DNA from: Halobacillus massiliensis
GTDB taxonomy: Bacteria > Bacillota > Bacilli > Bacillales > Halobacillaceae
Reading direction: 5' to 3'
Assembly: GCF_900166625.1 (NCBI RefSeq)
Contig: NZ_LT800499.1
Span: 4,002,541-4,066,540 of the forward strand
Length of the DNA stretch: 64,000 bases
Positions 5,759 to 54,146 of this stretch are shown here, piece after piece. The notes beneath the pieces are model-generated. The model was not told the DNA's origin. It made no database searches and saw only the letters and a list, made by a program, of their open reading frames with translations. Position numbers and translations under genes: made by a program. How positions within the stretch are numbered: the stretch's first letter is position 1; every line of letters starts with the position of its first letter.

Positions 5759-5899
5759 GTCTATGAAAGACTTGAAGAGACAGCCTTTTTTGTTACTTTT
5801 GAGTTGCAAGATGAAAGATATACAGTTCCTGTTTATCTTGTTTGGAAAAGAGGAAAATGGCTGTTTCGTTTATTGAAAAAAGAGAAAAGAATCTGGTAA
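5759..5899 (+). pseudogene. Possible frameshifted small gene downstream of the RNR operon
   Basis: AAGGAGG at 5741-5747 suggests a translated gene, but no good start codon follows in the frame that looks protein-like. That frame (5759-5899) reads VYERLEETAFFVTFELQ, then DERYTVPVYLVWKRGKWLF and a basic end, with an amphipathic, natural composition. The ATG at 5763 is in another frame; a single-base indel after ATGAAAGA would join it to LEETAFF. This is either a decayed ~45-aa protein, a gene with a non-standard start, or chance. No homologue is recognised. Confidence 0.3.
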
Positions 5900-6610
5900 A
5901 AGACTCACTTTCCACGGGGAGCCGGTGAGCTAGCTCGTTGCACTCGCGGATCTCACCCTGGCTCTATCTCCCTGCAGGAGTCTCGCCATTCTGAAGAGAA
6001 TGAGCTGTTCCGTTTACTGTATAAGAGGAACGAGGCTAGGAAATAGCTCGCTTTCCGCGGGGAGCCGGTGAGCTAGCTCGTTACACTCGCGGATCTCACC
6101 CTGGCTCTATCTCCCTGCAGGAGTCTCGCCATTTCCCAGCCTCTTTAAATTAGTTGGTGGAAATGGAACGCTGTAAGCTCAGTAACCTCTCTAATGGGAT
6201 TGATCCTCTCTTCTTAAATGTTCCGTTACTGAAAAAAACGTAAAGGGCCAGGGGAAACGGCGAGACTCCTATGGGAGGATAGAACAGGGTGAGATCCCGG
6301 AGGGCTAAAAGCCCGAGGAAGCTCACCGTTCGCCCATGGAAAGCGAGTTGTTTCCCCAGGCCCGATTCCCTTTATCAATGTAAATGGAACAAGGGAATTC
6401 CCTTCAAACTTCTATCGTATTTGTCCTCACTATTTCACTGTTTCGTTACACCAAAAAACATAAAGGGCCGGGGGAAATGGCGAGACTCCTATGGGAGGAT
6501 AGAACAGGGTGAGATCCCGGAGGGCTAAAAGCCCGAGGAACCTCACCGTTCGCCCATGGAAAGGGAGTTGTTTCCCCAGGTCCGATTCTCTTTATCAAGG
6601 GAAACGGAAC
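5864..6610. repeat. Palindromic repeat cluster 1 (modules A-A-B-B)
   Basis: Four structured modules fill the gap between the RNR operon and nadA. A1 core is 5901-5990 and its outer stem is decayed. A2 is 6007-6169, from GTTCCGTTTAC to GGAAATGGAAC, with core 6032-6143 (GAGGCTAGGAAAT paired to ATTTCCCAGCCTC, tip GAGCTAGCTC). A 50 bp spacer (6170-6219) leads to B1 at 6220-6390, with core 6245-6363 (GGGCC-A-GGGGAAAC paired to GTTTCCCC-A-GGCCC, inner stems GGTGAG/CTCACC and GGGCT-AAAA-GCCC). B2 is 6440-6610. ORFs that cross the modules are not protein-like. Possibly an intergenic mobile (MITE-like) or structured RNA family. Confidence 0.85.
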
Positions 6611-16890: not shown

Positions 16891-17395
16891 GTTCCGTTTA
16901 CTTTGTATTAGAAAACCGGGTCTGGGGAAAGACTCGCTTTCCATAGGCGAACGGTGAGCTTCCTCGGGCTTTTAGCCCTCCGGGATCTCACCTTGTTCTT
17001 TTCTCCCATAGGGTCTCGCCGTTTCCCCCGCCCTTTGCGCTTATTAGAAGTAACGGAACACTGAGGTTAGAAAAGATTATTTCCTCAAGAGAGATTACTG
17101 AAACTACAGCGTTCCGTTTATACTACCAACAGTATAGAGGCTGGGAAATGGCGAGACTCCTACAGGAGATAGAGCCATGGTGAAATCCGCGAGTGTAACG
17201 AGCTAGCTCACCGGCTCCCCGCGGAAAGCGAGCTATTTCCCAGCCTCGTTCCTCCTTATAAAGTAAACGGAACCGTCTTTCCCCTCCTCAAATATGTGAA
17301 TAAGATAGGGAAAATTGCTAGAATCCTACAGGAGATAGAGCCAGGGTGAGATCAGCGAGTGCAACGAGCTAGCTCACCGGCTCTCGCGTGTCATT
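16891..17395. repeat. Palindromic repeat cluster 2 (modules B-A-A, inverted)
   Basis: B3 is 16891-17059, from GTTCCGTTTAC to GTAACGGAAC, core 16917-17034, opposite in orientation to cluster 1. The spacer 17060-17110 is the reverse complement of the cluster 1 spacer with substitutions. A3 is 17111-17273, bounded by GTTCCGTTTA and GTAAACGGAAC, with an intact GAGGCTGGGAAAT/ATTTCCCAGCCTC outer stem (17137-17247). A4 (about 17306-17395) is truncated; the junction A3-A4 is the same sequence as the A5-A6 junction of cluster 3, reversed. The cluster lies between a small membrane gene and the acetyl-CoA synthetase paralogue. Confidence 0.85.
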
Positions 17396-21271: not shown

Positions 21272-21388
21272 CCTCCTCTTATCTCTCAGATCAATGATCT
21301 GTAGGATTTGGCACCTTTTCAAACCGAAGTTTGAAGGTTGCCGGGCTTCACAGGGCCTAGTCCCTCTGCCGCTCTTGATAAGAGTAAT
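21272..21388 (-). promoter_or_regulatory. SAM-I (S-box) riboswitch
   Basis: Read on the minus strand: CTTATCAAGAGCGGCAGAGG, GACTAGGCCCTGTGAAGCCC, GGCAACC, AAGGTGCCAAATCCTACAG, then GAGAGATAAGAGG closing P1. This is the standard S-box order. High S-adenosylmethionine should terminate the metY transcript at the downstream hairpin. Confidence 0.96.
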
Positions 21389-23567: not shown

Positions 23568-23577
23568 AAGCAATAAA

Positions 23578-23622
23578 GCAAACGGAACCTGTAGTTTTAA
23601 AGAAACAGGTTCCGTTTGCCTT
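23578..23622 (+). terminator. Terminator built from repeat-family ends
   Basis: GCAAACGGAACCTGT (23578-23592) pairs perfectly with ACAGGTTCCGTTTGC (23605-23619), followed by CTTTTAA. The arms are the same GTTCCGTTTGC/GCAAACGGAAC ends that bound the palindromic repeat modules, without a module core in between. It lies just left of repeat cluster 3. Confidence 0.75.
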
Positions 23623-23639
23623 TTAATAAAGAGAATCTT

Positions 23640-24236
23640 GAAAGAGACTAGCAGTTTTCACTATCTTATATACACATTTGAGGAAGGCAAAGACGGTTCC
23701 GTTTACTTTATAGAGAGGAACGAGGCTGGGAAATAGCTCGCTTTCCGCGGGGAGCCGATGAGCTAGCTCGTTGCACTCGAAGATCTCACCATGGCTCTAT
23801 CTCCTGTAGGATTCTAGCAATTTTCACTATCTTTCTTATTCACATTTTTGAGGAGGGGAAAGTCGGTTCCATTTACTTTATAAGGAGGAACGAGGCTGGG
23901 AAATGACTCGCTTTCCACGGGGAGCTGGTGAGCTAGCTCGTTGCACTCGCGGATCTCACCTTAGCTCTATCTCCCTTCAAGAGTCTCGCCATTTCCCAGC
24001 CTCTTTAACTTTAGCAGTGGAAACGGAATACTGTTGGTTAGTATTCTAATGAAATTAGTCTTCTCAAACTCAATGTTCCGTTATTTCTAAAAACCATAGA
24101 GGGCCGGGGGAAACGGCGAGACTCCTATGGGAGGATAGAACAGGGTGAGATTCCGGAGGGCAAAGCCCGAGGAATCTCACCGTTCGCCATGGAAAGCGAG
24201 TCCTTCCCCCGGCCCGGTTCTCTAAGTAAAAGGAGC
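23640..24236. repeat. Palindromic repeat cluster 3 (modules A-A-B)
   Basis: A fragment of an A-module junction at 23640-23695 is followed by A5 (starts GTTCCGTTTAC 23696; core 23722-23830 with a decayed right arm), A6 (23866-24029; core 23892-24003, GAGGCTGGGAAAT/ATTTCCCAGCCTC), spacer 24030-24074 and B4 (24075-24236; core 24101-24215, GGGCC...GGCCC). B4 has a shortened tip GGGCAAAGCCC and a decayed right end. Same A-spacer-B order as cluster 1. It lies between the small gene terminator and the hydrolase gene. Confidence 0.85.
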
Positions 24237-31773: not shown

Positions 31774-32596
31774 GTTCCGTTTGCTTAATGTAGAGAACCG
31801 GCCGCGGGAAATGACTCGCTTTCCATGGGCGAACGGTGAGTTTGTTCAGGTAAAATCCTACTGGGGACTCACCCTTATTCGGTGTTCCTTCAGTTTATTT
31901 TCACTTAAAGGGGGAAGAGAGTTTCGTTTACTTTAATAGAAAACTGGGCCTGGGGAAAGACTCGCTTTCCATGGGCGAACGGTGAGCTTCCTCAGGCAAA
32001 GCCTTCCGGGATCTCACCCTGTTCTTTTCTCCCATAGGAGTCTCGCCGTTTCCCCTGGCCCTTTGCGTTTATTAAGAGTAACGGAACATTGGGTAAGAAG
32101 AGACTATTTCCTTAAGAGAGCTTACTGAAACTGTAGTGTTCTGTTTATCCCAACAAAGGTAAGGAGGCTGGGAAATGGCGAGACTCCTGCAGGGAGAAGA
32201 GCCAGGGTGAGATCCGCGAGTGGAGCGAGCTAGCTCACCGGCTCCCCGCGGAAAGCGAGCTATTTCCCAGCCTCGTTACTCTTCTACAGCAAACGGAACC
32301 GTCTTTTTCCTTTCTCCGAAAAAGAAGAAAGAAAGAGAAATGGCGAGACTCCTGCAGGGAGATAGAGCCAGGGTGAGATCCGCGAGTGCAACGAGCTAGC
32401 TCACCGGCTCCCCGCGGAAAGCGAGTGATTTCCCAGCCGCTTTTCTACACACATGATAAACGGAACAGCTCTTTCTCTATTCATAAAGAGCCACGGAGAT
32501 TGCAGGACTCCTGCAGGGAGATAGAGCCAGGATGAGATCTGCGAGTGTAACAAGCTAGGTCACCGGCTCCCCGTGAAAACGAGTTATTTCCCAGCC
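31774..32596. repeat. Palindromic repeat cluster 4 (modules B-B-A-A-A, inverted)
   Basis: B5 (GTTCCGTTTGC 31774) is truncated near 31885. B6 is 31921-32087 (GTTTCGTTTAC to GTAACGGAAC; core 31946-32061). The 50 bp spacer 32088-32137 matches that of cluster 2. A7 is 32138-32299 (core 32164-32274, perfect outer stem). A8 (core 32335-32440, ends ATAAACGGAAC) and A9 (core 32490-32596) follow in the same orientation; A9 is visibly decayed (GCTAGGTC tip, GTGAAAAC arm). The longest cluster seen, filling the space between the VOC gene and ytvA. Confidence 0.85.
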
Positions 32597-32616
32597 GTTT
32601 TTCTCCAAACGAAATC

Positions 32617-53537: not shown

Positions 53538-53569
53538 ATATTTTTAAAAAGCGGTTCCTTTTTTCCTGT

Positions 53570-54146
53570 GTGAGTAAAAGCGGCTGTGGAGTCACTTTCT
53601 TTCCGCGAGGAGCCGGTAATCAAGCTCGCTGTACTCGCGCGATCTCATCTTGGCTCTATTTCCCTGTAGTAGTTTCGCCATTTTTCTTGATCTCTCTTTA
53701 AAGAAGGCTGTTCCGTTTATTATAAAAAGAGAAAAGCGGCTGGGAAATCGCTCGCTTTCCGCGGGGAGCCGGTGAGCTAGCTCGTTACACTCGCGGATCT
53801 CACCTTGGCTCTTTAAATTTAATGGTGAAAACGGAACGCTGTCATCTCAGTAAGCTCTCTCATGGAAACGATCCTATCTTCTTAAATGTTCCGTTACTCT
53901 AAAAACATAAAGGGTCTGGGGAAACGGCGAGACTCCTATGGGAGGATAGAACAGGGTGAGATCCCGCAGGGCTAAAAGCCCGAGGAAGCTCAGCGTTCGC
54001 CCACGGAAAGCGAGTGGTTTCCCCAGGCCCGCCTCTCTTTATCACGGGAAACGGAATAAGGGAATTCTCTTCAACTTTCTATCGGATTTGTCCTCACTAT
54101 TCCACCTATTCTCCCGGCCCTTTATGTTTTTTAGAGTAACGGAACA
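53570..54146. repeat. Palindromic repeat cluster 5 (decayed A, A and B modules)
   Basis: A10 (about 53581-53685) is strongly mutated. A11 (53710-53837, GTTCCGTTTAT to GTGAAAACGGAAC) has lost its right arm: the core stops at 53811 in TTGGCTCT and resumes at TTTAAATTT. The spacer 53838-53887 leads to B7 (53888-54056; core 53912-54030), intact except for substitutions. After B7 the B-B junction sequence is kept (54061-54110), but then runs directly into CCCGGCCC and AGAGTAACGGAAC, so a B module core is deleted leaving only its end (54111-54146). Same A-spacer-B order as clusters 1 and 3. Confidence 0.8.

Follow-up and report, generated by a model that had tools for sequence, protein, structure and literature searches.

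A paired palindromic repeat of Halobacillus massiliensis as the probable core of an old group of MITEs in its bacterial family

The stretch of Halobacillus massiliensis DNA analysed here, a window of 64 kb from a 4.31-Mb genome, contains a composite palindromic repeat in which two homologous modules, A (163 bp) and B (171 bp), stand in inverted orientation on either side of a spacer of about 50 bp. The repeat itself, noticed in a preliminary description of the window, was confirmed, and the interpretation proposed with it was partly supported. On balance, we consider it probable that the composite is the core of old non-autonomous transposons (MITEs) of this bacterial family, which would be moved in trans by an ISL3-type transposase, and that the copies present here are an end-less derivative located beyond the 3' ends of genes.

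The reverse complement of B aligned with A over the full length, showing that the cores of the two modules derive from a single module and have since diverged. The initial view was that A and B share their ends but have different cores; the cores are not unrelated. An HMM search resolved the five clusters of the window into 19 modules or fragments (Table 1), where about 18 modules had been counted before. The modules, coordinates, clusters and orientations reported at that stage were all correct. The composite reads A>..<B in the clusters at 6.0, 23.9 and 53.8 kb, and the two others, at 17.0 and 32.0 kb, have B>..<A. The core motif GGAGTCTCGCCNTTTCCC, with up to three mismatches allowed, occurred 11 times in the window, compared to 0.09 expected matches, which excludes a chance occurrence. 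By eye, a terminator-like hairpin could also be discerned at approximately 23570-23625, the stem of which consists of the module end GCAAACGGAAC/GTTCCGTTTGC pointing inwards, as if it had been formed from the junction of two elements. The only Rfam families that the window matched above gathering score were the cobalamin (2124-2296, + strand) and SAM (21276-21384, - strand) riboswitches.

Table 1. Modules, module fragments and the spacer of the first composite in the window, with the HMM positions matched
Feature	Coordinates	Strand	Basis
Outer A copy, 3' truncated	5863..5990	+	HMM A positions 1-128
Module A of composite 6007..6390	6007..6169	+	HMM A positions 1-164; folds as single long branched hairpin
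50-nt spacer, A to B	6170..6219	.	Gap separating HMM matches
Module B of composite 6007..6390	6220..6390	-	HMM B positions 1-171; reverse complement aligns with whole A
Outer B copy	6440..6610	-	HMM B positions 1-171
Module B	16891..17059	+	HMM B 1-171
Module A, tail to tail with B 16891..17059 across 51 nt	17111..17273	-	HMM A 1-164
Outer A fragment	17288..17386	-	HMM A 53-153
Outer A copy	23696..23837	+	HMM A 1-144
Module A	23866..24028	+	HMM A 1-163
Module B	24075..24232	-	HMM B 11-171
Outer B fragment	31774..31875	+	HMM B 1-105
Module B	31921..32087	+	HMM B 1-171
Module A	32138..32299	-	HMM A 1-164
Outer A copy	32307..32466	-	HMM A 1-162
Second outer A copy	32476..32611	-	HMM A 14-150
Outer A copy	53561..53691	+	HMM A 8-137
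Module A, 3' truncated	53710..53814	+	HMM A 1-105
Module B	53888..54056	-	HMM B 2-171
B 3'-end fragment, unusual orientation	54108..54145	+	HMM B 134-171

In the whole genome, the core motif was matched 332 times, compared to 10 times for its reversed control; the earlier estimate of hundreds to thousands of modules per genome is therefore borne out for hundreds but not for thousands. The exact pattern of the composite core was found 75 times in the H. massiliensis genome and once in G004, the nearest relative, whereas a search of nine further genomes of the genus gave no match. Linkage was assessed on 43 clusters in 40 stretches picked solely by the core motif, and the tail-to-tail A/B junction was present in 39 of them at an E-value of 1e-4 and in 41 at 1e-3. 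A and B, which might have proved to occur mostly apart, are thus joined across a spacer of near-constant length, and it is the composite that forms the architectural unit. Addition of 39 clusters from loci chosen by the composite, and hence biased, and of the five clusters of the window gave a set of 87, which holds 197 of the 332 motif matches. The clusters follow a strict grammar, as the 197 pairs of neighbouring modules comprised 85 tail-to-tail A/B junctions, 107 tandem A-A or B-B arrangements and only five others. The composites read B>..<A in 48 cases and A>..<B in 37, and the gap between A and B ranged from 11 to 73 nt, with 69 of the 85 at 44-51 nt. Many clusters carry an extra tandem outer A or B, so that the 385-bp composite is best regarded as a core, its role as a mobile unit being unproven. 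Outer copies are frequently truncated, and their similarity to inner modules is barely higher within a cluster than between clusters (0.776 vs 0.754 for A in 32 cases; 0.839 vs 0.808 for B in 25 cases). No module was detected on the genome's own plasmid contig at an E-value of 1e-4, nor any composite at 1e-5 in plasmid and phage collections, from which records of this genome or of very close ones may be absent. Clusters with equal HMM scores and flanks were observed at locus L031 and at L033, the latter with three copies approximately 4.6 kb apart, apparently as parts of repeated chromosomal units.

Conservation differed strongly between the parts of the composite. Among 69 distinct composites (of the 85, after exclusion of duplicates and of those with a module below 140 bp), A reached a median pairwise identity of 85.8% and B one of 88.2%, unpaired positions being conserved as well, but the spacer only 54.5%; what had been described as a conserved spacer is accordingly conserved in length and not in sequence. 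The parts nevertheless share a history, since pairwise distances were correlated between A and spacer (r = 0.26, reached in 0 of 2000 permutations), between B and spacer (r = 0.19, 8 of 2000) and between A and B (r = 0.15, 52 of 2000).

Related genomes were informative as to how the repeat has spread. At an E-value of 0.001, the composite query matched at least 43 of 61 genomes, its own included, in at least 15 of 30 genera, while a pattern scan of named genomes, with a pattern that was too strict, gave a single match. Ends of the form GGCTCTGTTAAA-N8-TTGATTTT were found 17-128 times in nine relatives, compared to 0-2 times for the reversed control, and three times in the H. massiliensis genome. 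Of 20 copies selected by these ends in genus g4, 18 contained modules, in 15 of these as the inverted pair, and the element length ranged from 192 to 920 bp, with 13 at 604-685 bp. The systematic test for target duplications, which covered g4, revealed exact duplications of 8 bp in 11 of the 20 copies and of 7 bp in two, with none of 4-6 or 9-13 bp; the flanks of 13 copies matched at seven or more of eight positions, compared to a mean of 0.85 copies and a maximum of five in 2000 shuffles, and the 8-bp duplications were 91% A+T. By length, both the composites and the g4 elements are too short for most transposases. The g4 results show that the pair has moved there as a MITE, mostly of 600-690 bp, with transposon-type ends; the A-spacer-B composite, originally taken as the unit that spreads, is therefore smaller than the mobile unit of the relatives. 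An additional palindromic insert was seen by eye in the apical part of the second module (approximately 1100-1180) of one g4 element (L183).

In genus g2, the pair is flanked by inner repeats of the form GAAGACTYRRTTTCRAG, of which four genomes have 153-188 matches each, compared to 0-1 for the control, and its spacer exceeds that of the window, with 71-120 nt in most pairs. The GGCTCTGTTAAA-N8-TTGATTTT ends lie outside these inner repeats. At a distance of up to 200 bp, 13 of 19 g4 clusters, from loci selected by these ends, had both terminal repeats, as did 7 of 34 g2 clusters, while 18 of the 34 had neither. Thalassobacillus devorans possesses one copy of the same build, with both terminal repeats within that distance, though without an exact duplication (L220, 3378-3991). 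Two stand-alone hairpins, in which two g2 inner repeats face each other head to head with approximately 20 nt between them, were noted at L163 (~540-600) and L166 (~555-615). A further candidate, an autonomous element delimited by a 1.8-kb pair of inner ends at L162, was discarded, as the enclosed reading frames appeared ordinary by eye.

The inverted duplication appears to be older than three genera, for which a tree of 60 of the 95 collected modules (chosen at random within large groups) gives rough support. The modules of g2, g4 and T. devorans were entered without a prior A or B label, and 9 of the 10 elements from outside the genus with both modules sampled had one module among the A and the other among the B sequences, L181 being the exception. 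In this tree the A/B split precedes that of the three genera, with a support of 69 of 100 at the fork, from a bootstrap that had yet to converge.

The terminal repeats together with the 8-bp AT-rich duplications suggest a DDE transposase of the ISL3 type acting in trans, although duplications of 8 bp are also made by the IS1595, IS66 and IS256 families. Four intact ISL3 elements (three in genome G020 and one in G061) are flanked by exact, AT-rich 8-bp duplications, and their ends, GGCTCT/GGTTCT...TTGTTGGGG, contain TTGTTG and resemble those of the MITEs without being identical. A partner with identical ends was sought among the ISL3 loci of 44 genomes of the family, of which eight have an ISL3 transposase, but no element with both MITE ends was present; this lowers the claim for ISL3, not that for a MITE. 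The transposase was found in two of ten searched genomes, and not in the H. massiliensis genome, in G034 or in the end-carrying g2 genomes. Conversely, ISL3 is present in g6, in three genomes out of four, with no g6 module among the matches listed. The many ends without ISL3 in G034 and g2, as well as ISL3 without detected modules in g6, count against a simple link.

In H. massiliensis itself, 85 of the 87 clusters have no terminal repeat within 200 bp, the other two showing one weak match, and none of six G004 loci has one at this distance. The flanks of the 87 clusters, in which there are no ends from which a duplication could be positioned, yielded no 8-bp duplication with GG ends; shuffling gave 0.4 such pairs on average. 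Without the GG requirement, 267 pairs of flanking 8-mers were found, compared to 1852 per shuffle, an excess in the shuffled data which is due to repeat sequence common to the flanks of different clusters. The absence of both ends and GG-ended duplications means that the clusters are either old insertions, of which the ends but not the modules have decayed, or products of another process.

At all five window sites the pair is absent from G004. The nrdB-nadA gap holds a different palindromic repeat there, as does, by eye, the equivalent of the 17.0-kb gap, while short gaps correspond to those at 23.9 and 32.0 kb. The equivalent of the 53.8-kb gap contains sequence that by eye resembles a diverged module without giving an HMM match, and a weak A match (19 bits) lies in a neighbouring gap (L223). 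The other palindromic repeats that fill G004 gaps corresponding to window composites were located at L134 (1029-1500) and, by eye, L222 (~1385-1505). Conversely, of the six G004 composites that matched best, five lie in gaps that also hold a composite in H. massiliensis, four with support from both sides and one (L168/L095) from one side. The sixth (L169) corresponds to a short, module-free gap (L221), and five more G004 module loci had no flank match to the H. massiliensis loci compared, giving five shared sites out of eleven. Since the window sites lack the pair in G004 and H. massiliensis has no module at one site occupied in G004, sites have been gained or lost. In four of the five shared gaps the two composites have opposite orientations, and the copy in the same gap ranked 45, 56, 59, 1 and 37 of 85 in similarity. 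Both repeated insertion into favoured gaps and exchange with flipping in place fit these data.

The clusters are situated past the 3' ends of genes, as called with a home-made codon model rather than a standard gene finder. Overlap between a cluster and a called gene never exceeds 60 bp, and the gaps with clusters comprise 22 convergent, 24 codirectional and two divergent ones, compared to 17, 68 and 42 among cluster-free gaps of at least 50 bp (Fisher P = 1.2e-5 for convergent and 2.7e-5 for divergent gaps). Considering gene ends with gaps of 21-350 nt, a terminator-like hairpin precedes the cluster at 30 of 58 facing gene ends, compared to 4.35 in shuffled gaps. Transcription termination was dismissed as the main role of the repeat, although terminator-like hairpins do occur within the clusters, in 71 of 174 cluster-strands.

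In the explanation that we favour, an ancestral hairpin module would have given rise to an inverted duplicate before the divergence of at least three genera. In relatives, the pair lies inside terminal repeats of the GGCTCTGTTAAA-N8-TTGATTTT type and duplicates an 8-bp AT-rich target, as seen in g4, with this signature pointing to an ISL3-type transposase supplied in trans. In H. massiliensis the family would survive as a derivative with transposon ends that are no longer recognisable. The copies gather beyond gene 3' ends, where an insertion is presumably harmless.

An alternative, which we regard as improbable, is that the pair behaves as a REPIN, excised as single-stranded hairpins and copied in trans by a RAYT without target duplication. 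The inverted pair with its spacer, the restriction to gaps, the hundreds of copies and the missing terminal repeats in the H. massiliensis genome all fit the REPINs of PMC3116915, as far as the available part of that source describes them. Moreover, PF01797 is matched at least once, in an open frame of 185-218 aa, in every one of the ten same-genus genomes, and the four g6 genomes, with no modules among the matches listed, have no PF01797 match. The H. massiliensis copy is decayed; the fragment of this Y1 transposase (L046, C2:941872-942078) contains stop codons. However, REPs adjoin their RAYT according to the same part of PMC3116915, while none of 37 PF01797 loci had a module at E <= 0.01, and it was for this reason that the RAYT, which its pattern of presence had made a promising mover, was demoted to a rival. 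Genome G016, with 106 module candidates at first look, also has no PF01797 match, and the g4 pair sits in an element with 8-bp duplications.

Maintenance by the host, whereby MITE-derived modules would now be under selection, for example as protein-binding, supercoil-absorbing or transcription-insulating sites, is unlikely too, if a little less so than a REPIN-type origin. It would account for the conservation of the modules relative to the spacer, unpaired positions included, for the gaps shared by G004 composites and for the terminator-like hairpins within clusters. Conservation of the modules would, however, equally follow from a constraint on mobility or from copying between copies, and it is difficult to reconcile selection at a site with the five pairless window sites in G004, with shared-gap orthologues that are usually not the closest copies, or with the hairpins that gene ends facing the clusters often have already. 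Least probable is a structured non-coding RNA family transcribed from the cluster gaps. The predicted folds are highly stable (-63 kcal/mol for A, -75 for B and -200 for the composite), but the modules match no Rfam family at gathering score, and the composites occur in both orientations, often past terminator-like hairpins. The stems had been described as compensatory, which was not corroborated: within the genome, with 36 sequences for each module, compensatory changes were seen in just 2 of 30 predicted pairs in A and in 0 of 41 in B.

The favoured reading as a MITE core places the family close to ISL3-type MITEs, with which the g4 elements have in common their short length, the apparent lack of a gene, terminal inverted repeats starting with GGCTCT and exact 8-bp AT-rich duplications; duplications of this length, together with similar ends, are also seen in the family's intact ISL3 elements. 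It differs from these MITEs in that the core is an old inverted pair of hairpin modules of approximately 165 bp, in that no ISL3 with matching ends was found and in that the copies of the window genome are devoid of ends. Compared to REPINs, which likewise consist of an inverted pair with a spacer in gaps and reach hundreds of copies (PMC3116915, available part), the modules are long, as REPs are given as 20-40 bp in the accessible part of PMC3733652, and they neither lie beside PF01797 genes nor, in g4, lack 8-bp duplications. Other repeated stem-loop sequences of bacilli are bcr1 of the Bacillus cereus group (167 bp) and Bhal-1 (74 bp) and Bhal-2 (76 bp) of Bacillus halodurans; any kinship with the modules would be hypothetical, and the available part of PMC2267715 mentions no paired composite for them.

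A family with matches in at least 43 of 61 genomes is widespread, yet no description of this A/B palindromic repeat was found in the literature searched, parts of which were accessible in excerpt. With the ends, element size and target duplications provided by the relatives, a loosely defined repeat can now be studied as a transposon family open to test, and the end-less derivative poses the question of how a MITE core multiplies and stays conserved after the loss of its transposon ends. One tentative answer, in our view unlikely, is that the MITE core has turned into an end-less repeat in which the modules are near-fixed while spacer and ends drift, and which occupies preferred gaps after genes where it is flipped or exchanged in place; this reading draws on the opposite orientations in four of the five gaps shared with G004 and on shared-gap copies that are mostly more similar to copies from other sites. 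If so, the composite would have become domesticated as an element past terminators that may be invertible and is kept by selection or by copying between sites.
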